From positions 62,001 to 126,000 of the forward strand of contig CAIQWD010000028.1 in the NCBI GenBank assembly GCA_903875445.1: 64,000 nt of DNA, given 5' to 3'. The translations under genes were made by a program, and so were the position numbers. Position 1 is the stretch's first letter. Every line of letters starts with the position of its first letter. The stretch comes from an uncultured delta proteobacterium (lineage in GTDB: Bacteria > Desulfobacterota > Desulfobulbia > Desulfobulbales > Desulfocapsaceae). Shown piece by piece: positions 40,181 through 50,473 of this stretch. Under the pieces are notes generated by a model. That model was not told the origin of the DNA and made no database searches. It worked only from the letters and a program-made list of their open reading frames with translations.

Positions 40181-41695
40181 TTGATCCCTTCCCCGATTGG
40201 CAGATTTTTTGTTTTGTTGTGGCTCTTCTGTTGTTGGATTCCCTGCGCTTTTGCCACCACTTCGCAAGAGCCTGACGTCACTATTCGGAGGGGCGCTGAG
40301 TTGACCGGCAAAGGTACCAAGATGCCCGTCGTTACTATCACCCAGCCCGCCGGCGGCTGGACGACGAGCCTGCAGCTTGAGGTGAGCGGTACCTGCTCCG
40401 ACCCTACGGCCGACCCGGTCGCCGCCAACATTAACGGCGTGCGCTACTACCTGCGGACGTTTGCCGGTGCCTTTTCCAAGAAATTCCCGGCATCCAAGGG
40501 GAAAAACACGGTGATTGTCGAGTGCAGCAACAAGGCCGGAACATCCAGGGCGAGCGCGATGGTCGATGCCGTCATCAACCCCATTCCCTTAAAAGTTGTG
40601 TTGACCAGCGACACCGACGGGGTCTATACCGATTTGCACCTCTACGAGCCGGATCGGACTCATGTTTACTGGGCCGAGACCCATTCTCCCTCCGGCGGCA
40701 TCTTTTTTTTAAATAAGCAAGGCGAATCCTTCGATCAGCCGGGTTATGGTCCCTATCTCTACGTACATCCAGCCCCTCCTGTAGGCGTTTTTCGGGTTGA
40801 CGTCAACTATTGGCCGGGGGAAGCCGTGCAGCATACCCTTGCCAATCTCGATATCATCACCAATGAAGGGCTCCCCAGCGAAAGCCGCAAACGGGTAAGA
40901 AAACCCTTGGCGCGACCGGGTGAAACCCAGACCTTTGCCTATATCGTTTTTCGTGGCAATGGCCAGGTACCCTCGATTTTTATCCCGGGACAAGACCCGG
41001 AGAGCGACATGCCGGAGGAGGTGCGGGCCTACAAGAAACAGGGAGAACCGAAACTCGAGGGCGATTTCGCTTATCTCTCCGCAGTGGATGAAAAGGCCCT
41101 GCGTGACTCGGTGACGCGCCTGGCGCTATTGCAGGCGAAAAAAACCAGCCCTCTGTGGGAGGACAAGCAGCGGGATTGCGCCGGCCTTGTCAGATTTGCC
41201 TACAGCAGGGCGCTGCAAAACCCGACGCCGGCGGAAAAGCGGAAAATGGGCATCCCGGACGCCCTCCATCTTCCGCCGGTTTCAGCCTTTGCCAAACGGG
41301 TTTTTCCGGATCATTCGCGTATTTGGCAGGTGGGCTTTGAAGCGACTGCGCCTCGCTACGGAGCGTTTGCCGACGCCGAGACGCTCATCGGCTTTAATTT
41401 TCACAAGAAAACCCGTGACGTGACCCTTGCCCGTGACGGCGATCTTCTCGTCTATCAAAAGGGCTTTGAAGAAAGCGTGCCCTATCATCTGATGATCTAT
41501 GTGCAAAACCGGCCTGAGAACCTCGCCGTTTACCATAACGGTGCCAGCGGCCAGGAGGCCCAGGTCCGCGTCGTGCGACTGCAGGATCTCATGACATCCC
41601 CCGACCCGGTGTGGATTCCCGGAGCCGATAACCCCTATTTTTTGGGAGTGTACGAGTGGAATCGAATCGACCCGCAAGGCGTAAAGGTATTATAA
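40181..41695 (+). CDS. DUF2135-DUF1175 fusion, NlpC/P60-like exported protein (YfaP-YfaT type)
   Basis: The 504-aa protein has a signal peptide ([17 protein letters not shown]) and joins two domains encoded separately in E. coli (yfaP, yfaT). Residues about 50-270 are the DUF2135 beta-rich domain ([20 protein letters not shown]). Residues about 300-500 are DUF1175. In the latter, C333 in [12 protein letters not shown] and H436 in [10 protein letters not shown], with GDLLVYQ between, imitate the Cys-His pattern of NlpC/P60 cysteine peptidases. I infer that DUF1175 is a papain-like hydrolase, perhaps a cell-wall amidase. TTG start with excellent ribosome site; first gene of the operon. Confidence 0.82.
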
Positions 41696-43383
41696 CGGCG
41701 GTCTTTTTGGGGCTTTTGTGCTGCGGCCTCCTGGCTTTCTGGGCATTGCGGGGGCTGCACCGAGCACCTGTAGCCGAGGTCGTCAAACTGGTACATAAAG
41801 ACATTCCGATCCTTGCTCTCGATCTTGCCTTTACCGACCTCAAGGGAAACCCCGTCCCAGCCGCCGAGACCCGACTGTTGGCAGGTGTCGTTGCAAAAGC
41901 GGACCAAGCGAAAGGTGCGGCTACCTGCCCGGAAATTACCGGCGGCGACGCCCCGAACGGCGCAATTTCTCCCGAAAAACGGAAAATGGACGATAACTGC
42001 CCAAAACACGCCACCTGGTATGTGAAACGCCATCCACTGGGGCTGTCGCTTTATTTCATGGAGCCGGCGAAGATTTTACCCCTTTTTGAAAAAGAAGGGG
42101 CGATGAAAACTCTTTGGGAAAGCCGGTTCGTTCAAGGGATTTTACGCGAACCGCTGATGAGCGGCCGCGTCCGAGCCGAAGACCTCGGGCTTGCAGGTCT
42201 TGAGGGGGCGTTTTTTGAAAAACTGGTAAAAGAAGCTTTGTCGGCGGATGCTATCTTGCACTATGATTTCATTCACGGCAACAAGGGCTTTGTCTTTTCC
42301 TTTGTCAGGAATAAGTGCCTCTATGCCGCCAAGGCCCTGCCCATCATTGCCGCCAAACTGGTCCGCAGCGGCTATCAGGTGCCGGGAATCGAGGAACCGG
42401 TACTGGAGATGCATGTAGGCTTGCAACGCCTCTTTTTCTGCCAGTACAAGGAGCGGGTGTATTTCGCCAATGGCCTCGAAGCCCTCTTAAACGTGGTGGA
42501 CCAGGAAGCACCGCCGGAAAGCGACGCACCGAAAACGCCACTGCTCCTCTCTCTGCGGGCCGAAGCCTTTCTCGATAAGCTTGTTCCGGCCTTGGCGGGA
42601 AAATCCGGATTGCACATGAATCTCGGAATCGATTTTTCCGAAGACTCCCCCGGAGCGCTCCGTTTCACTGCGGGAGAGTATGCGAAGCATCTGCGACCCA
42701 CTCTTTTTAAAGGTGTGCCGGCAAGCATCCCGCGGGATGTGTTTGCGGCCGTCATCACCAGCTTTCATCTCTCCCCCGACATAAGCGAAGAGGCGTGGCA
42801 GGAACTGGCAACCAAGGGACCGGGAGAGACCCCCGCCAAGGAACCGCAAGAGAGCGGCGTTGCCATTCTCTGGGATCTCTCCGCCGAGGAGCGCGGAATC
42901 ACCAGCGTTGGCGTGGCTATCGCTAGTCAAACAGCGCCGAGTGATGCGAAAGAATTGAACCACTATTTTAAAAATAAGGAACTGACGGCCGTTTGCGGCG
43001 GTGGAACAGTCTACCTTGCCGCCACCAATAAAAATCTCCTGCTGCGCATGCAGGAGAGCTGTGAGCACCGGTCGATGAGCATTCTCGACTGGGAAAGAGG
43101 GCAAAAATCAAATCTCTATGCCTCCTCCCAGTTGTCGATGTTTATCAATCCGGGGGGCGGCCTGCGGGAGTTGCTTCTTTCCGGAGGTGCGGCGGCAACC
43201 GAGACTACCGATTTTCTCCCCCAGTGGAAACAGGAATTGGAAAAGGCCAAGGCCCGGCTGTATGCAGAGGGAAAAACGGTTTTCGGCGGCCTGCCCATTT
43301 TGGCCTATTCGGGTAATGTCGCTCCGGGGGGCAAGACCGTCGAACTGCAAGGATTCACCGTTAAACAAGGAGTGTCGCCATGA
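41656..43383 (+). CDS. DUF2138 protein (YfaA type)
   Basis: The 575-aa protein has one N-terminal membrane helix ([21 protein letters not shown]), so most of it should face the periplasm. The order between the DUF1175 and macroglobulin genes, and the length (E. coli YfaA is about 560 aa), identify it as the DUF2138 partner of macroglobulin operons. The function is unknown. Start GTG 41656 overlaps the previous gene by 40 bases. Its end overlaps the macroglobulin start by 4 bases (ATGA), so translation is coupled through the operon. Confidence 0.78.
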
Positions 43384-46300
43384 AGGTCCGTCGTCCCTGT
43401 ATTGGCCTTTTTCTCGGCTTTGTAGGCGCGCTTTTCTTGCCTTTCATCCCGACCGGAGTGTTGGCCGGAAGCCCCTTTTATCTCACCGTTGAAAGAAGCT
43501 TTTCCACCAGCGAAAAGCCCGAGGTGCGGCTTGACTATACGGCAACCGACAAACCGATGCACCTCCGGGTGCTCCAGCCGAAAAACCTGGAGACCTTTCT
43601 CGACGGGCAACTGCACATCAGCCGCAGTTACGAAGAGCCGGTCTCGGAGTTGAACCCCGGCCACTATATCGTCACCGGACTGAACAAAACCGCATCGCCG
43701 CTCAAAGCCTTCCGCAATATGCTCGATCCCGAGTTCCGGGCGGGGTTTGCCGGAACCTCCTTCAGCGAAACCATTGTCGAGACGCCGAAAGAGACGCTCG
43801 CAAGCCCGCCGGAAGAGGTCATCCAGGGACCGCCGTCTGGGTTTACGGTCGTTCGGGATTACTTTATCGATCTGCAGTACGGCGGAACGGCGACAAACGA
43901 TCTCGGCTGGTGGTTTGCCTCTTCCGCATGGGATGAGGGCCACTATCAAATCCGCCGCATCGCCCTTGATGCCCTTCCGGACGGCGTCTATCTCCTGCAA
44001 GCAGTGCAGGGCAAGGCCGAGGGACAGTGCCTCATGCAGGTGAGCAGCCTCTCCGTGCAGGTGAAGCAATCGACGGAGCAGCTCGTCGTCCGGGTGATCG
44101 ACCGAGGGCTGAACCCGATTTTAGGTGCGAGCGTGAGCTACCGGGATGGACGGGGGCATTGGATCCTGCTTGATCAAAAAACCAATGCCGCGGGAGAAGT
44201 CGCCTTTGCCAATCCCGAAGGAATTCTAGACGGCAAACTGGTCGTCAAGGTCGAGACGGCCGATGGCCGGAAAGCCTTGACGGACACCGATTTTCTTCCC
44301 ACGGTAGCAAGCGACGACCCGGTTTTTATGATCACCGACCGGCCGATTTTCAAACCGGGCGAGAACGTCTTTTATAAGGGCGTCATTCGCACCTTCGACA
44401 AGGGGCAGCTGAAGGTCCCGTCCTTTAAGGATACCAAGGCGAAAATTCACCTGGTGCGCAGCGACGGCCAGGCAACGGAGGTGAACGAAACCGTGCCCCT
44501 CACCCCCTTCGGGTCTTTTAGCGGTGAACTGGACCTCGACCCCTTGCAAACCCCCGGCCTTTACCGCCTCATTGCCGAAATTGAAAAGAAACCCTATGGC
44601 GGCGAGTTCCGGGTGCGCGACTATGTGAAACCCAAGTTTTATCTGGAACTCATCGACCGGAGCCCTGTAGTCGTAGAGGGTGAGCAATTTTCCGTAAAAT
44701 TTAAGGCCAGGCGCTACGGTGGCGGCGTACCTGCCGGGGTTAAGTACGAGGTCTTCCTCTATCGTAAAAAATTCGAGGCACCCCAGTGGGTTACCGAGGC
44801 CGGCGGCGGGCTTTCATCCGGTACCGACTACTGGGGGGAGATCCGCTCCACCTCGGCCCTGACCGAGCCCCAGCGGATATTCAGTTCCTCGGAAAGCCGT
44901 CTCACCGCTATCGACCCCTCTTTGTCCAACCCCTGGGACACCGCCCCGCAAATGAATGAAAGCGGCGAAGAATCCTTCACCTTCGATCTACCCAAAACGG
45001 AAGTGAAAAAAGACGCAAACGAAGGGAAATCGACGGATGAGGAGTGGATCTATACGCTCATGGTCCGAGCCATGGACCCCGCCGGCTCGACGGCAATCCT
45101 CACCGACAATATCTTCGTTTCTCGTTCCGAAGCCCTGCCCCTGGTGCGGTTTTCCAGCAACACGGCGCGGGTCGGCGAAAAGGGCTTGACCCTGCAGCTC
45201 CGCTCCACCTATCCGGATGGCAAGCCCGCCTCACTGGCTGGCGGAGTGATCGATCTCTTCATGGAAAAAGGCAAGGAGGCGCCGGAAAATATCGGCAAGT
45301 TCCCCTTCGCAACCGACGAACGGGGCCTCTATCAACTCACCCTGCCCGAATCGGCCAAAGCGGGACGACTCAGAGCTGTTGCCACCCTTGAAACCCTTGC
45401 CGGCAAGCCGATGCGCCATCCGGCCGCATCCGAGCCCGCCCTCATGGTGATCGGCAGCGATGATGGCACGGCCGTTTTCGAGGCGGACGGGTTGCAGCTC
45501 TATACCTCGAAAACAATTTTAAGCGCCGGTGAAAAAGCCGAGGTGCTGGCGATTCTTCCCGCCGGTTGGGGCAAGGAAGAGAGCGGCACAGTCTGGGAAA
45601 CCATTGCCGGTACAAGGGTGTATGAGACCAAGGCAACTGCCGTTCAGGGCCGCAGTCGCTGGTTCGCAGTCGAAGCAAAACCGGAATACGGCACGGGCTT
45701 TTACCACACGGTGAGCATCCCGACGAAAGGCGGACGTTACGACGAAAAGACCCTCGGCTTTCGCATCATCCCCGAGAGCAAGCGGCTTCGCATTGCCGTA
45801 ACCCCGGAGCTGGAGGAAACCGCCCCGTTAAAACCGATGAAAATTGCCCTGAAGGTAGAGGATGTTAGCGGCTCTCCCGCCCCGGACACCGAACTTGCGG
45901 TCACCATTGTCGACCGGGCGGTGTATGCGGTGCAGCCGGAGATCAGGCCCGGTATCTTCGACTTTTTCTACCCGCTGCCGCGGCAGAATGTTGCGACCTT
46001 CTACTCCGATGAACTCCAGGGCTACGGCTATGCCGATATCCTGAAAAAACCCAACTTCAAATTGGGCGCTTTGAAAAGCCAAAGCAAGATGGCCAAAAAA
46101 TCGATGCGCGACACGGCCGGCTGGTTTCCCCATGTAATGACCGATAAGGATGGTCTCGCCACCATCACCGTCGATCTTCCGGCCAATGTCACCGAGTGGC
46201 TTATTACCGCCGTCGCTGCTGATAAACTCGGTCGTGTGGGGGAAGAGAAAAGGCAATTCCGCACCCGCTCGGATATCGCAGTCGAAGTGCTGGCACCGCA

Positions 46301-48287
46301 ATTCGTCAGGAAAGGCGATACTGCCACCCTGAACGTTCAGAGTATCAACCACCTGGAGCGGAGTATTCCGGCGACAACCAACATTGAAATCACCGAACCG
46401 GGAGTCCCTAAAAGCGGCGCGATTGGAGAATCTTTCATCCTTGAGAAAAAGGGCGAACATCTTCAGCCGCTGGTGTTCAACGCCACCGGCGAGAGCGGAG
46501 CGGCCGAGGTTAATGTCGCGTTAAAAACTGCAGAAGACCTTCTGGTGGCGGGCAATGAAGCCTTCGAACTGCCCTTGAAACCTGCGGCCATGCAGCAGGT
46601 GTTAGGAAGTGTGCCCCAGGACGGCAGGTTCCTCACCACAATTCCGGAAACGGCGACGGTTCGCAGCTTGAAGGTTGAGGTCCTGTCGGGCCTTCTCGGT
46701 GCGGCCTTGAACTCGGCGGCGGTCCTTGTCTCCTACCCGTATGGCTGTACGGAACAGCTGGTGCATTCGACCGTTCCCAACCTTGTTCTTATGGATTTGG
46801 TCCGGAAGGCCGGGATCTTGCCAGGGCAACTGGGACCTCTTGGCAAAACCCTGCTGCAGGCCGAGAAAAACGCCGCCGTCGGCATCGGCAACATTATGAA
46901 AAACCAGAAGACGGACGGCGGCTTCGGGGCCTGGCGAGGGACGTCCGAGACTTCCGTGTCCGTGACCCTGACCGCGCTGTACGCGCTAAATCTCGCAAGA
47001 GACCTGAAAATCGGAGGCGCCGAACTGTCGTTTGGCCGGGGGGTGGAATGGCTGGCTAAGAAGATCGATGCCCCAAAAGACTTGAAGGATCACAGAGCCT
47101 TTTCTCCCTATGAGCTGTCGCGATTTGCGCAAATCTCTGCCTATTCACAACCCTGGGACGAACAGATTGCTTTTGTCAATACCTTGGCGCAAGCGTCGGC
47201 TCCGCCCCTTATGCACCTCGTTTACGGGCTGCGGATATTTAAGGCTAACGAGCAGCAGGATTGGAACCGCTTCAGTCAGGAATTCAAGGAGAGCAAAGTT
47301 CGGGAAACGCTTGTCGGTAAATTGAAGAAATCCCTTGAACCCTTGGAGTCTCTTGCAGAAACTCAGCTCCTTGAAAAAGATCCGCAGTTCTTCGAACAGT
47401 TGGGCTTCGGTTACGGACTACCCGCTGTCGTGTCGTCGGTGCTCGGTGTGCTGAACGATGAAAAGGCCCTTTCGCCGGACCTTAAGATGCGGCTTGGTCG
47501 CATTCTTCTCCAAGGGATGAAAAATGGCTACTGGACCTCGACCTTCGATACCGCGCAGGTGATTTTCAATACCCGAGGCCTGCTTGCCAAGGAGGCGGCC
47601 GCTGCGGCCCATGAAAAAACCGCGAGGTCCCTTACGGTTGTCCTGCAAGACGGTCGGGTGTTAGGATCGCTCGAACGGATTCCGGCGGGCTTCACCGGCC
47701 TTTTCGCAAGTCCCGGGGCGTCCGGCGATCTTGCCGATATTCGCATCACCGGGCTGCTGCCGAACGAAGTCGTATATACCCATCTGACGGCCGACGTGCC
47801 CTTTGAGGCGGTGAAACCGGTAGTGGGCGGCATCGTGGTTGAAAGAAATCTTTTCCTTGTGACCCCCACCGGCCATGAGGAGTTGAAGTCCGACACATCC
47901 CTGCGGAAGGGTGATAGCATAGTTAGTGAAATTACCGTGAAACGAGGAAGGTTGTCGGAGAAGGGGGCTCTCCAGAGCCGCTTCGTGGTGGTGGAAGACG
48001 GGGTTCCGTCGCTGGCGCAAACCATCGATAACGATGAAAGCCTTTTGGCGGATGCCAAATTGAAGCCGGATGCACCCAATTACTGGTCGTTGATCAAAGA
48101 GACCCAGCGCTATCCGGAGAAAACCATCCGCATAGCCGAGGTTGCCCCCGGCGGCGAAATCAAACTCTACCAGGTGTGGCAGGTAACCTTTAGCGGCGAG
48201 GCGTCGCTTCCACCCGCTTTGGCTTTTGACATGTATGATGAAAGTGTCCGGGGAAATACCGGGCCCGAACGCCTGAAGGTCGAATAG
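43380..48287 (+). CDS. Bacterial alpha-2-macroglobulin, YfaS/MagD operon type, with thioester motif
   Basis: A 1635-aa periplasmic protein with a signal peptide (LFLGFVGALFLPFIPTGVLA). It has successive macroglobulin beta-domains, seen in FMITDRPIFKPGENVFYKG, the MG3-like FRVRDYVKPKFYLEL and the bait-like region before FVSRSEALPL. An alpha-2-macroglobulin core follows (TAGWFPHVMTDKDG), then a helical thioester domain with SYPYGCTEQL, where C1123 and Q1126 can form the internal thioester. Family members trap proteases that cut the bait. Published work describes this operon type as usually lacking the CxEQ motif, so its presence is notable. It overlaps the DUF2138 gene by 4 bases and is followed 14 bases later by the DUF2300 gene. 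Confidence 0.9.
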   Translation: MKVRRPCIGLFLGFVGALFLPFIPTGVLAGSPFYLTVERSFSTSEKPEVRLDYTATDKPMHLRVLQPKNLETFLDGQLHISRSYEEPVSELNPGHYIVTGLNKTASPLKAFRNMLDPEFRAGFAGTSFSETIVETPKETLASPPEEVIQGPPSGFTVVRDYFIDLQYGGTATNDLGWWFASSAWDEGHYQIRRIALDALPDGVYLLQAVQGKAEGQCLMQVSSLSVQVKQSTEQLVVRVIDRGLNPILGASVSYRDGRGHWILLDQKTNAAGEVAFANPEGILDGKLVVKVETADGRKALTDTDFLPTVASDDPVFMITDRPIFKPGENVFYKGVIRTFDKGQLKVPSFKDTKAKIHLVRSDGQATEVNETVPLTPFGSFSGELDLDPLQTPGLYRLIAEIEKKPYGGEFRVRDYVKPKFYLELIDRSPVVVEGEQFSVKFKARRYGGGVPAGVKYEVFLYRKKFEAPQWVTEAGGGLSSGTDYWGEIRSTSALTEPQRIFSSSESRLTAIDPSLSNPWDTAPQMNESGEESFTFDLPKTEVKKDANEGKSTDEEWIYTLMVRAMDPAGSTAILTDNIFVSRSEALPLVRFSSNTARVGEKGLTLQLRSTYPDGKPASLAGGVIDLFMEKGKEAPENIGKFPFATDERGLYQLTLPESAKAGRLRAVATLETLAGKPMRHPAASEPALMVIGSDDGTAVFEADGLQLYTSKTILSAGEKAEVLAILPAGWGKEESGTVWETIAGTRVYETKATAVQGRSRWFAVEAKPEYGTGFYHTVSIPTKGGRYDEKTLGFRIIPESKRLRIAVTPELEETAPLKPMKIALKVEDVSGSPAPDTELAVTIVDRAVYAVQPEIRPGIFDFFYPLPRQNVATFYSDELQGYGYADILKKPNFKLGALKSQSKMAKKSMRDTAGWFPHVMTDKDGLATITVDLPANVTEWLITAVAADKLGRVGEEKRQFRTRSDIAVEVLAPQFVRKGDTATLNVQSINHLERSIPATTNIEITEPGVPKSGAIGESFILEKKGEHLQPLVFNATGESGAAEVNVALKTAEDLLVAGNEAFELPLKPAAMQQVLGSVPQDGRFLTTIPETATVRSLKVEVLSGLLGAALNSAAVLVSYPYGCTEQLVHSTVPNLVLMDLVRKAGILPGQLGPLGKTLLQAEKNAAVGIGNIMKNQKTDGGFGAWRGTSETSVSVTLTALYALNLARDLKIGGAELSFGRGVEWLAKKIDAPKDLKDHRAFSPYELSRFAQISAYSQPWDEQIAFVNTLAQASAPPLMHLVYGLRIFKANEQQDWNRFSQEFKESKVRETLVGKLKKSLEPLESLAETQLLEKDPQFFEQLGFGYGLPAVVSSVLGVLNDEKALSPDLKMRLGRILLQGMKNGYWTSTFDTAQVIFNTRGLLAKEAAAAAHEKTARSLTVVLQDGRVLGSLERIPAGFTGLFASPGASGDLADIRITGLLPNEVVYTHLTADVPFEAVKPVVGGIVVERNLFLVTPTGHEELKSDTSLRKGDSIVSEITVKRGRLSEKGALQSRFVVVEDGVPSLAQTIDNDESLLADAKLKPDAPNYWSLIKETQRYPEKTIRIAEVAPGGEIKLYQVWQVTFSGEASLPPALAFDMYDESVRGNTGPERLKVE

Positions 48288-48301: not shown

Positions 48302-50473
48302 ATGTTTGGGTTTTTCCGGAGGCTTTTTGCCAAAACGCTGTTCTTGGAGGCCGGCGCGGCACTTCTTTTTTTTGGCTCTTTGATCCATAACGAGGCGCTC
48401 TTCCAGCATGGCGAAAGGGCACTCGCAGAGTTGCAAAGTCAAGGCTACCAAGGTCCAACAGTTGCCGAACCGGTGCGGATCTACCCGGGCAAGACCGATG
48501 GACCATTCAGCGGCGTTCATGCCGGCAGCTGGCGACCGGGCGTCATCACCTTGCGACAGCAACCCCAAGGCGTTTTTGGCTCCGAGGTGTATCTTCGCCA
48601 CGAGTTGCTGCACGAGGCCTCGTTTCGCACCTGCAAGGGCAACCTGCCTCTCTGGGCCGAGGAGGCGGCAGCCATCCACTTCAGCGGCGAGCTTCCGGCA
48701 GACGTTTCCATAAAAGCGATTTCCGAACCTTCACTCGAACACTTACGGGAGCGCGTCCGGGCAGGCGCGCGGTTGGACGAGGAAAGCTACACTGCGCTTT
48801 CACATCTTCTGAACTTGCACGGTTGGCCGCAAACCCCTTGCAGCGTTTCACCAGCCATCGCCAAGGCGCTGCAGCCGCTATCCGCCGCAGCAAAACAGGA
48901 CTTCAGTTACCTTCTGATAAGTTTACTCTCCGGTCGGATCCTGGAGGCCAAAGGTGACCTCCAAGAGCGCTATCCTCCGGGCTCTCTCTTGAAAATTCCC
49001 TATGCCGCGTCCTTAAACGAGGCAGCCAGCGAGGTTGTCGGGGCTGAACTTTCGGCAAGCGACACCGGAAAACTTCTTGCCCGCCGACAGGCATTTAATA
49101 TCGACCGTTACCGGCTGCTCATTTCGATGATTGCCGATGCGCCCCTTGGCGAGCGGGTTGCGCCGCAAGAAGCAGCCAGCAAAAACCAGACATTTTGGCG
49201 GCGCTATCTCGGGGAGCGGGATGAGGCCGGCCTTTTCCCGCTAGAGGCGAATTTGCAAGAACTTGCCCTCATGCTGCGTGCCGCCCTTCTCTCGACTCCC
49301 GAACGTTTTTCCGGTTTGTCACAAAATGGAATAACGCCAGGATCGACCCTCTACGAGCGGCCTGAAACGGAAAAGAAGATTGTTAACAAGCTCCGGGCCC
49401 TTTGCAAAACCGGCACGGTGTCGGACGAGCGGGGACAACCGCTGGCAGGCCACCTCATGGTGGCGTGGCCCAAGGAGAATCCGGTCTATCTGGCGATATT
49501 CCGCAAGACCGGGGTGCCTGGGTCGGCAGTTTTGCGACCGGCTGCCCTCGTATTAAAAGAATGGGAAAAGAGGTGGCCAAGCAGTTTCGGAGAAGTGCGG
49601 GTGCGGCTGCTTTCCCTTGTCCCAGCCACTTCCTGGAAGGCCTATGAGCCCTGCCCGGTTTTGCCGCTTCGGGAACACGAGAAACTCGTCGAAAAAGCAA
49701 GCCTCTGCGGTAGGTTCCAAATCATTTCGTCGGCCAAGGGCGGTCGGCCGGAGCGCATTGTCTGGGGCGTTCTCGAAACTCGGTCGGAAGCGGACGCCGT
49801 GGTTCTTGAAACGGACCCCTTCACATTTGCCGATCAGGTGCTGGAGAGTGAAGCCGACGATCTCAGCGGCGAGGCCAAGGCTGCTCTCCGGGCGGTGATC
49901 GTCTGGAACGGGGTCCATGGCGGACACAGACATCCGGAAACGGAGGCCCTGTGCGATTCCACCCACTGCATGGTGTTTCAGGGGGTGCTCCCCGGAAAGA
50001 CGGAAAAAAGACCCGATCCGATAGAACCGCGACTTATTGCACTGTTGAATGGCATCGCCAAAAAGCAACAAGGTGATTGGCTCTCCTTTTCCGAAGGCGG
50101 GGCAGAAAAATGGACAAAACAGCTGTCCTTTACGGAAATCGAGCGCCTGGTGAATGAGCCGAGGGTCCACGATATCCGCCGCGAGAGAAAACGCAGCGGC
50201 GAGATCGTCATTCACCTCATGTACCCGGAAAATGAAGAAGTCGTGCCATGCGAAGTATTCCGCAACCGGATGAAACTCCTTTCTTGCCCTGCCGTCATCG
50301 AACGGGATGAACCAGGGCACCTGTGGCGTTTCGAAGGAATCGGCAAAGGGCATGGCCTCGGGCTCTCGGTTGCGCGGGCAAGAATACTTTCCCAAACCGG
50401 CTACGATGCGGCAAAAATTATTGAGGATGCTTACGGAGCGGGATTGGGTGGGGGGAGCGTCGCGTCCGAGTAG
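48302..50473 (+). CDS. DUF2300 (YfaQ-type) protein with HELLH, PBP-like and SpoIID-like motifs
   Basis: A 723-aa protein anchored by an N-terminal hydrophobic helix (FLEAGAALLFFGSLI). Three enzyme-like regions can be read. First, HELLH at 100-104 with WAEEAAAIHF about 14 residues on is the zinc metalloprotease pattern. Second, S228-L-L-K231 in PGSLLKIPYAAS, S293-K-N295 and K369-T-G371 in ALCKTGTVSDERG reproduce the SxxK, SxN and KTG boxes of penicillin-binding proteins and serine beta-lactamases. Third, the C-terminal part with GKGHGLGLS (681-689) resembles SpoIID lytic transglycosylases. E. coli YfaQ is shorter (about 550 aa). It is the last gene of the operon, and activities are inferred from motifs only. 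Confidence 0.8.
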   Translation: MFGFFRRLFAKTLFLEAGAALLFFGSLIHNEALFQHGERALAELQSQGYQGPTVAEPVRIYPGKTDGPFSGVHAGSWRPGVITLRQQPQGVFGSEVYLRHELLHEASFRTCKGNLPLWAEEAAAIHFSGELPADVSIKAISEPSLEHLRERVRAGARLDEESYTALSHLLNLHGWPQTPCSVSPAIAKALQPLSAAAKQDFSYLLISLLSGRILEAKGDLQERYPPGSLLKIPYAASLNEAASEVVGAELSASDTGKLLARRQAFNIDRYRLLISMIADAPLGERVAPQEAASKNQTFWRRYLGERDEAGLFPLEANLQELALMLRAALLSTPERFSGLSQNGITPGSTLYERPETEKKIVNKLRALCKTGTVSDERGQPLAGHLMVAWPKENPVYLAIFRKTGVPGSAVLRPAALVLKEWEKRWPSSFGEVRVRLLSLVPATSWKAYEPCPVLPLREHEKLVEKASLCGRFQIISSAKGGRPERIVWGVLETRSEADAVVLETDPFTFADQVLESEADDLSGEAKAALRAVIVWNGVHGGHRHPETEALCDSTHCMVFQGVLPGKTEKRPDPIEPRLIALLNGIAKKQQGDWLSFSEGGAEKWTKQLSFTEIERLVNEPRVHDIRRERKRSGEIVIHLMYPENEEVVPCEVFRNRMKLLSCPAVIERDEPGHLWRFEGIGKGHGLGLSVARARILSQTGYDAAKIIEDAYGAGLGGGSVASE

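Follow-up and report, generated by a model that had tools for sequence, protein, structure and literature searches.

A three-module protein with peptidase-like, penicillin-binding-protein-like and SpoIID-like parts behind the macroglobulin gene of an uncultured delta proteobacterium

Introduction

What kind of protein accompanies an alpha-2-macroglobulin in a bacterial operon, and what might it do there? The question is raised by a 64,000-nucleotide stretch (hereafter, the window) from an uncultured delta proteobacterium of the Desulfocapsaceae (phylum Desulfobacterota; assembly GCA_903875445.1, contig CAIQWD010000028.1, positions 62,001 to 126,000), in which the gene directly behind a macroglobulin gene encodes a 723-residue protein without a Pfam match at E values up to 1. 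An earlier note, made from the sequence alone, had called it a DUF2300 protein that combines zinc protease-like, penicillin-binding protein (PBP)-like and SpoIID-like motif sets. Here we report that it is a real three-module protein with a new architecture, in an operon of a known kind. The combined reading is borne out by predicted folds, by invariance of the motifs in seven aligned proteins and, in the case of the SpoIID and peptidase modules, by profile-profile comparison; we are fairly sure of it overall, the identity of the peptidase module being the least sure of the three.

Results

Relatives of the window protein are few and share its motifs

Among 57 genomes searched, the protein was present only in its own genome and in one other (58 % identity). 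Two short peptide patterns run against a collection of 84,980 species brought up at least six loci encoding proteins 46-58 % identical to it, one of which (L024) is the same protein as the 58 % relative and was counted once. A two-row profile matched 20 of 395 genomes of the phylum, the window's own genome alone across the whole protein, 18 others at the SpoIID end only and one in the HExxH region only. None of the 22 stretches of viral contigs that met the pattern held a relative, and the plasmid search gave no match to the window protein. Thus, the window-type protein is rare and patchy. In all six related loci a macroglobulin coding sequence with a CTEQ segment lies directly upstream, two of these sequences being clipped by contig ends.

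The motifs HELLH, WAEE, SLLK, SKN, KTGT and GKGHGLGLS all lie where the earlier note had placed them (Table 1). In the seven aligned window-type proteins, to which all counts out of seven refer, HExxH, WAEE, SLLK, SDT, KTGT, E517, H544/C551/H555/C556 and GxGHGxGLS are invariant, and so are H100, E101, H104, S228, K231 and K369, the residues on which the earlier note had proposed to test its reading. Because these proteins are 42-92 % identical pairwise, forming about four groups, and the profiles made from them are thin (effective number of sequences about 1.9), this invariance is weaker than the number suggests and does not represent seven independent witnesses. When the residues of the protein were shuffled 20,000 times, 866 of the shuffles contained HExxH, 1914 KTG and 38 a loosely spaced SxxK..SxN..KTG series; none contained GxGHGxG[LM]S, and none the three motif sets jointly.

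The C-terminal module resembles SpoIID

When the C-terminal module was compared by hhalign with 12 proteins of the phylum, all of which match PF08486, the alignment covered 218 columns, in agreement with the SpoIID-like character that the earlier note had read from GKGHGLGLS. The 12 proteins had originally been found through the same C-terminal end, which favours a match there; the match also spans the region of the catalytic Glu. In single sequences the signal stays below threshold: PF08486 was detected in three of the seven members at E values up to 1 (best 0.0053, below the Pfam cut-off), and the NCBIfam model SpoIID_LytB (TIGR02669) at residues 645-708 of the window protein (E 6.9e-4, 19.6 bits against a cut-off of 83.3). 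Searching the PDB with the profile of the whole window protein returned only two SpoIID chains, 5i1t and 5txu (E 0.15-0.18), which we take to be C. difficile SpoIID; of four module profiles, all but that of the middle module (below) returned nothing usable there, and the single protein one unrelated match. PMC6221140 describes a His/Cys zinc site for C. difficile SpoIID; its counterpart, kept in 7/7 window-type proteins, is one residue shorter from the first Cys to the second His.

The N-terminal module resembles gluzincins

E121, within WAEE, lies at +17 from H104, a spacing shared with four Peptidase_MA_2 proteins from the phylum, and WAEE falls in register with PVWLHEG of Peptidase_MA_2 proteins. 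Alignment of the module profile with eight peptidase-like proteins of the phylum (hhalign probability 88) likewise placed HE and P-x-W-x-x-E in register. Four of these eight pass the Pfam cut-off for Peptidase_MA_2; the others are the degenerate proteins of a split form described below, two of them with weak Peptidase_MA_2 matches (E 0.027 and 0.035) and two without. For this module, single-sequence Pfam searches matched no family in any of the seven window-type members. Modelled alone with AlphaFold2, residues 34-197 gave a predicted local distance difference test score (pLDDT) of 84.5 and a predicted template modelling score (pTM) of 0.83, and the best VIA match had a root-mean-square deviation (rmsd) of 3.7 over 148 residues (Z 7.8). 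The best 50 VIA rows comprised 49 zinc peptidases or ACE2 relatives, which we take to be of the M1, M2, M4, M9 or M61 type (ACE2 counted with M2), and one TFIID chain. The zinc protease-like claim made for HELLH and the downstream WAEE is supported by conservation (7/7) and by the profile match.

The middle module takes a penicillin-binding transpeptidase fold in the model

In the AlphaFold2 model of the full protein, which is of middling confidence, residues 197-428 take a penicillin-binding transpeptidase fold: the superposition with PBP2a covered 201 residues at an rmsd of 3.7, and each of the best 50 Foldseek rows was a PBP or a class A beta-lactamase (two carried DARPin titles). These searches used the full model, and their best 50 rows bear on the PBP domain alone. 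KTGT lies on a strand and S228 three residues ahead of a helix. Of the SxxK/SKN/KTG series proposed earlier, the first and last members held; SKN was rejected as the SxN motif, since it is found in the window protein only and the other members read DKN, GKD, GWD, VES or, twice, D with gaps. The invariant SDT is a candidate counterpart only, since the model did not show where in the fold it falls. Any direct sequence link to PBPs appears weak: PF00905 was found in 0/7 members at E values up to 10, one of the seven weakly matches Beta-lactamase2 (E 0.043), and comparison with true PBPs, the set also used for the YfaQ module below, gave an hhalign E of 1.1e-3 (probability 20) over 30 columns. The PDB search with the profile of this module was headed by an unrelated dioxygenase (E 0.91), followed at E 1.5 by a class D beta-lactamase whose SxxK lines up with that of the module. 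The earlier note would have yielded to poor conservation or to folds unrelated to the three families; only SKN fell to this test.

The gene closes a yfa/mag-type operon and shares module content with YfaQ

The three-module gene is the last of a tight row in which it follows a DUF2135-DUF1175 fusion gene, a gene in the YfaA position and the macroglobulin gene (Table 1). With DUF1175, DUF2135 and macroglobulin genes together, the window carries a yfa/mag-type operon, and the row has the same content as the yfa operon of E. coli (yfaA, yfaT, yfaS, yfaQ, yfaP; in K-12, yfaS is a pseudogene), its YfaA member being unproven: the gene in that position has no Pfam match, and hhalign against YfaA-type proteins, with an E of only 0.14, did not identify it as YfaA. 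DUF1175 proteins share an NlpC/P60-like DCAGLVRFA...H signature (8/8 aligned) with Pfam NLPC_P60 matches below cut-off, among them a sub-threshold PF00877 match in the window fusion protein (E 9.8e-4). Residues ~12-28 of the three-module protein form a hydrophobic stretch that, as read from the sequence, resembles a membrane anchor.

E. coli YfaQ (b2226), which sits in the yfa operon behind the macroglobulin gene, carries PF10062 (DUF2300) and PF08486, the latter at 27 bits against a cut-off of 23 (hhalign E 5e-8 for the SpoIID part). It aligns over its full length with a Citrobacter plasmid homologue and with a protein from a genome of the window's own order (G056), and all three read, from N to C terminus, GS[LV]WK, SCG, KT[FW]S, a SpoIID part and HEYLH near the C terminus. 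The order is thus PBP-SpoIID-peptidase in YfaQ and peptidase-PBP-SpoIID in the window type. The SpoIID parts of the two types match each other (profile E 7.5e-4), and the YfaQ PBP module matches true PBPs (E 6.1e-5, probability 65) with SxxK and SCG/SCN in register; four mismatched module pairs, used as profile controls, gave E values of 0.38-0.72.

The DUF2300 label of the earlier note had to be given up, since PF10062 matches 0/7 window-type members and nothing in the window's own genome; the label suits the protein only as regards its place in the operon and the modules it contains. PF10062 was also rejected as a single domain: it hits YfaQ-type proteins twice, in the PBP-like and in the HExxH part (L003:4149-5798, L030:1438-3261), and these two parts are unlike each other (E 0.55), so that the Pfam model looks composite.

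Two side observations concern the spread of this operon type. A Citrobacter portucalensis from a gull carries a whole yfa-type macroglobulin operon on an IncFIB/IncFII plasmid (L032:2028-11363, NZ_CP134684.1), and Thermotoga maritima, used as a control genome, matches both DUF1175 and A2M, a hint that the operon type reaches beyond Proteobacteria-like phyla.

Similar modules occur as separate genes in a related family

DUF1175 was found in six of the 395 genomes, four of which belong to one family (f28). In all four, macroglobulin coding sequence is followed by a PBP gene and then directly by a peptidase-like gene. The split-form PBPs exceed the PF00905 cut-off (4/4; E 4.8e-47 to 1.6e-45) and keep GSLVK, SCN and KTGT, and one of the peptidase-like proteins shares 26-32 % identity with intact HEYTH peptidases that the four genomes encode. 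In the four stretches analysed (5-19 kb each), none of the six reading frames contains the SpoIID tail motif. That similar modules occur both as split genes and fused in two orders makes it unlikely that one accidental fusion explains their pairing with macroglobulin. The link between PBPs and macroglobulins that the earlier note had drawn thus holds in outline, through a PBP-like module here and a separate, true PBP gene in the related family.

Operon type and thioester do not always go together

Type II macroglobulins are defined, in PMC5764988, by their lack of CXEQ. The macroglobulins beside window-type proteins nevertheless read CTEQ in 7/7 cases (the window, L024, L025, L026, L027, L028 and L029) and that of G056 reads CVEQ; the Citrobacter plasmid copy is without CxEQ. 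Because yfa/mag-type operons here carry CXEQ, operon type and thioester are separable and do not always pair as the type I/type II scheme holds. As a separate observation, the window's genome encodes on another contig a second macroglobulin of 2010 residues with CSEQ, followed by radical-SAM-like genes (L056:3234-9263, G000:C114); no PBP motif set was seen among the open reading frames listed in 18 kb around it, nor BiPBP_C in the genome.

In two genomes of one f28 genus (G069 and G170), an in-frame TGA stands exactly at the thioester Cys, GYPYG-[TGA]-NEQVMARFLPSV. The G069 frame has no other stop in its 1,555 codons, and its protein shows 60 % identity to Cys homologues (G106, G141) along the whole length; the G170 contig holds only the C-terminal part of the macroglobulin. 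A hairpin of 8 uninterrupted pairs and a 3-base loop starts 12 bases past the TGA in both genomes, and was compared with the rules for bacterial selenocysteine insertion sequences; Rfam assigned it to no family. Of 200 shuffles, 8 (G069) and 1 (G170) fold as well, and the hairpin is suggestive only, because the Cys homologues also fold at the same place, into stems that are interrupted (-12.9 and -10.3 kcal/mol; TGA genes, -12.3 and -15.9 kcal/mol). SelB was over its cut-off in G069, G106 and G170 (with one internal stop in G170) and below it in G141, and tRNA-Sec was over its cut-off in G069, G106 and G141, the best G170 score being 46.2 bits against 47; this tRNA family is not very specific, since it was over cut-off in 5/14 control genomes. 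The TGA pattern matched eight of the 395 genomes (reversed control, one), and only the G069 and G170 hits are macroglobulins; the other six were rejected, one (L071) being a 32-residue BLAST hit in a stop-filled frame. We predict a selenocysteine (selenoester) macroglobulin in G069 and G170, which appears more likely than decay because one TGA is kept in two genomes at the residue that must react.

Table 1. Positions of the modules, motifs and neighbouring genes (window numbering unless a locus is given)
Feature	Position	Strand	Evidence or remark
Three-module gene	48302..50473	+	ATG start, open reading frame of 723 amino acids
Gluzincin-like zinc peptidase module, residues 34-197	48401..48892	+	pLDDT 84.5; VIA Z up to 7.8; hhalign E 3e-6
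HELLH, residues 100-104	48599..48613	+	Predicted zinc ligands H100 and H104, base E101; HExxH 7/7
WAEE, residues 118-121	48653..48664	+	E121 predicted third zinc ligand; 7/7
Penicillin-binding transpeptidase-like module, residues 197-428	48890..49585	+	VIA Z 12.2 with PBP2a; Foldseek E 1.2e-4
SLLK (SxxK), residues 228-231	48983..48994	+	7/7
SDT, residues 253-255	49058..49066	+	7/7; candidate second PBP motif in place of SKN, putative role
SKN, residues 293-295, rejected as motif	49178..49186	+	1/7
KTGT, residues 369-372	49406..49417	+	7/7; on predicted strand
SpoIID-like lytic transglycosylase module, residues 488-711	49763..50434	+	hhalign probability 96.7, E 3.4e-10
E517, counterpart of SpoIID catalytic Glu	49850..49852	+	7/7
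H544/C551/H555/C556, counterpart of C. difficile SpoIID zinc site	49931..49969	+	7/7
GKGHGLGLS, residues 681-689	50342..50368	+	GxGHGxGLS 7/7
Operon partner, DUF2135 fused to DUF1175 (NlpC/P60-like)	40181..41695	+	PF06672 E 2.6e-66, PF09906 E 1e-8
Operon partner in YfaA (DUF2138) position	41656..43383	+	Position only
Alpha-2-macroglobulin	43380..48287	+	PF01835, PF00207, PF17973, PF07703 and PF07678 all over cut-offs
CTEQ thioester motif of macroglobulin	46746..46757	+	
UGA at macroglobulin thioester site	L057:5924-5926 (G069); L058:367-369 (G170)		

Discussion

The explanation that we prefer, and hold to be about evenly balanced between right and wrong, is that the window encodes a periplasmic, probably membrane-anchored three-module protein that would act as the wall-side partner of the macroglobulin and would be, by gene position and module content, the counterpart of YfaQ/MagE with its modules reordered. 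According to PMC5764988, MagD of Pseudomonas aeruginosa traps protease, binds MagA, MagB and MagF and exists in 165 and 100 kDa forms; PA4488 is magE there (it is named YfaQ in a table of PMC10977779), deletion of magE disturbs MagD processing, and the functions of the other mag operon proteins are called unclear. From the effect of this deletion we propose a division of labour, with macroglobulin processing falling to the peptidase module and work on the wall to the other two; if MagE has the modules of YfaQ, the HExxH part would be a plain candidate for the processing protease. In such a scheme, the SpoIID module would trim glycan strands at a damaged wall site with the help of the NlpC/P60-like DUF1175 partner. 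The partner could act upstream of it, SpoIID being described in PMC6221140 as acting on strands denuded by an amidase. The PBP-like module might bind or rejoin stem peptides, and the peptidase module would cut a protein at the site of damage, most likely the macroglobulin itself, as its processing or activation. Macroglobulin processing by the window protein is a testable guess; the arrangement as a whole suggests that protease trapping and wall repair are physically linked through the three-module protein.

Several results weigh against this explanation. Since the VIA Z of the peptidase module is 7.8 at best, that is, below 8, and its Foldseek E 0.5 or more, its fold alone is not decisive, and the AlphaFold2 model of the full protein, built from seven rows, is mediocre (pLDDT 60.5, pTM 0.48; 33.7-51.4 for the other four models). 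Direct profiles of the window and YfaQ PBP parts, and of their peptidase parts, do not match (E 0.19 each), and the YfaQ peptidase part meets the peptidase alignment at E 0.005 with a probability of only 7; because profile support is so uneven, the permutation is a reading of module content, with homology unproven for two of the three modules. MagE itself, according to PMC5764988, was reported cytoplasmic in earlier work and not stably bound to the complex, and its authors suggest a chaperone or signal-peptide role for it and tie the 100 kDa form mainly to MagB. Finally, some motifs hint at lost catalysis: window-type proteins have no conserved SxN at position 293, in YfaQ-type proteins SxN and KTG are replaced by SCG and KT[FW] (3/3), and the split-form peptidase-like proteins (L046, L047, L043:11100-11765 and L049) read HExxL in place of HExxH in 4/4, for which reason they are probably inactive relatives of Peptidase_MA_2.

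These same substitutions are what would be expected of a pseudoenzyme scaffold, whose folds bind peptidoglycan and macroglobulin and so tether the macroglobulin to the wall, sensing damage without catalysis. We consider such a scaffold a serious but rather doubtful alternative, given that all seven window-type proteins retain HExxH, the Glu at +17, SxxK, KTGT, E517 and the predicted zinc site of the SpoIID module although binding alone needs none of them; HEYLH is likewise kept in 3/3 YfaQ-type proteins, and the split-form PBPs keep all three motifs (4/4). It is also possible, if unlikely, that the protein is a wall-remodelling enzyme whose peptidase targets an envelope lipoprotein or wall-bound peptide, with the macroglobulin only shielding the complex from proteases and not serving as substrate. 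The DUF1175 partner and two of the protein's three modules do resemble wall enzymes, and the reported lack of stable binding of MagE to the Mag complex would fit; however, the modules stay with macroglobulin through split and fused forms, and the reported deletion of magE alters MagD itself (both reports as in PMC5764988).

A bolder version of our preferred explanation, which we think improbable, is that YfaQ/MagE-type proteins are dedicated macroglobulin convertases, their gluzincin clipping their own macroglobulin when the SpoIID and PBP modules meet damaged peptidoglycan. If true, wall damage itself would arm the trap, giving bacteria a parallel to the way in which a convertase activates complement, and the role would have been kept across at least three architectures (split genes, peptidase first and peptidase last). 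That the motifs arose by chance in an unrelated envelope protein is scarcely credible, for even though SKN is indeed a chance occurrence and HExxH alone is common among shuffles, conservation, the PBP fold (Z 12.2) and the profile matches of the SpoIID (E 3.4e-10) and peptidase (E 3e-6) modules, set against the mismatched pairs, speak against it.

The three-module reading gives predicted activities and named residues to a partner annotated only as DUF2300. No account of these modules or of a selenocysteine macroglobulin was present among the literature matches listed, subscription papers being largely outside the search. Compared with known systems, the middle module shares the fold, SxxK and KTGT of class B PBPs (PF00905) and differs from them in lacking both a PF00905 match and a conserved SxN at 293, and in being a short domain fused to two modules. 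SpoIID/LytB lytic transglycosylases (PF08486, TIGR02669) have the same catalytic Glu, GxGHGxGLS and, as in C. difficile, His/Cys site, whereas the window protein stays below the Pfam and NCBIfam cut-offs and carries its version as part of a three-module chain. With gluzincins (Peptidase_MA_2, M1, M4) the N-terminal module has in common HExxH and the Glu at +17 inside P-x-W-x-x-E, and its predicted fold resembles theirs at a VIA Z of 7.8 at best, but the window type lacks a Pfam match and the module is a small part of a larger chain.

YfaQ and MagE occupy the same position behind the macroglobulin gene (MagE according to PMC5764988 and PMC10977779), and YfaQ has SxxK/KT, SpoIID and HExxH parts; the window type differs from YfaQ in module order and in the absence of a PF10062 match, full-length BLAST detects no similarity between them, and only the SpoIID parts match. 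MagE is likened to the window protein through published naming and gene position. PMC5764988 further links the type I macroglobulin to PBP1c, where, as here, a PBP-like protein accompanies a thioester macroglobulin; in the window, by contrast, the PBP part is small, transpeptidase-like and without a glycosyltransferase, and lies in a yfa/mag-type operon, so that the PBP link told for type I macroglobulins is extended to this operon type.

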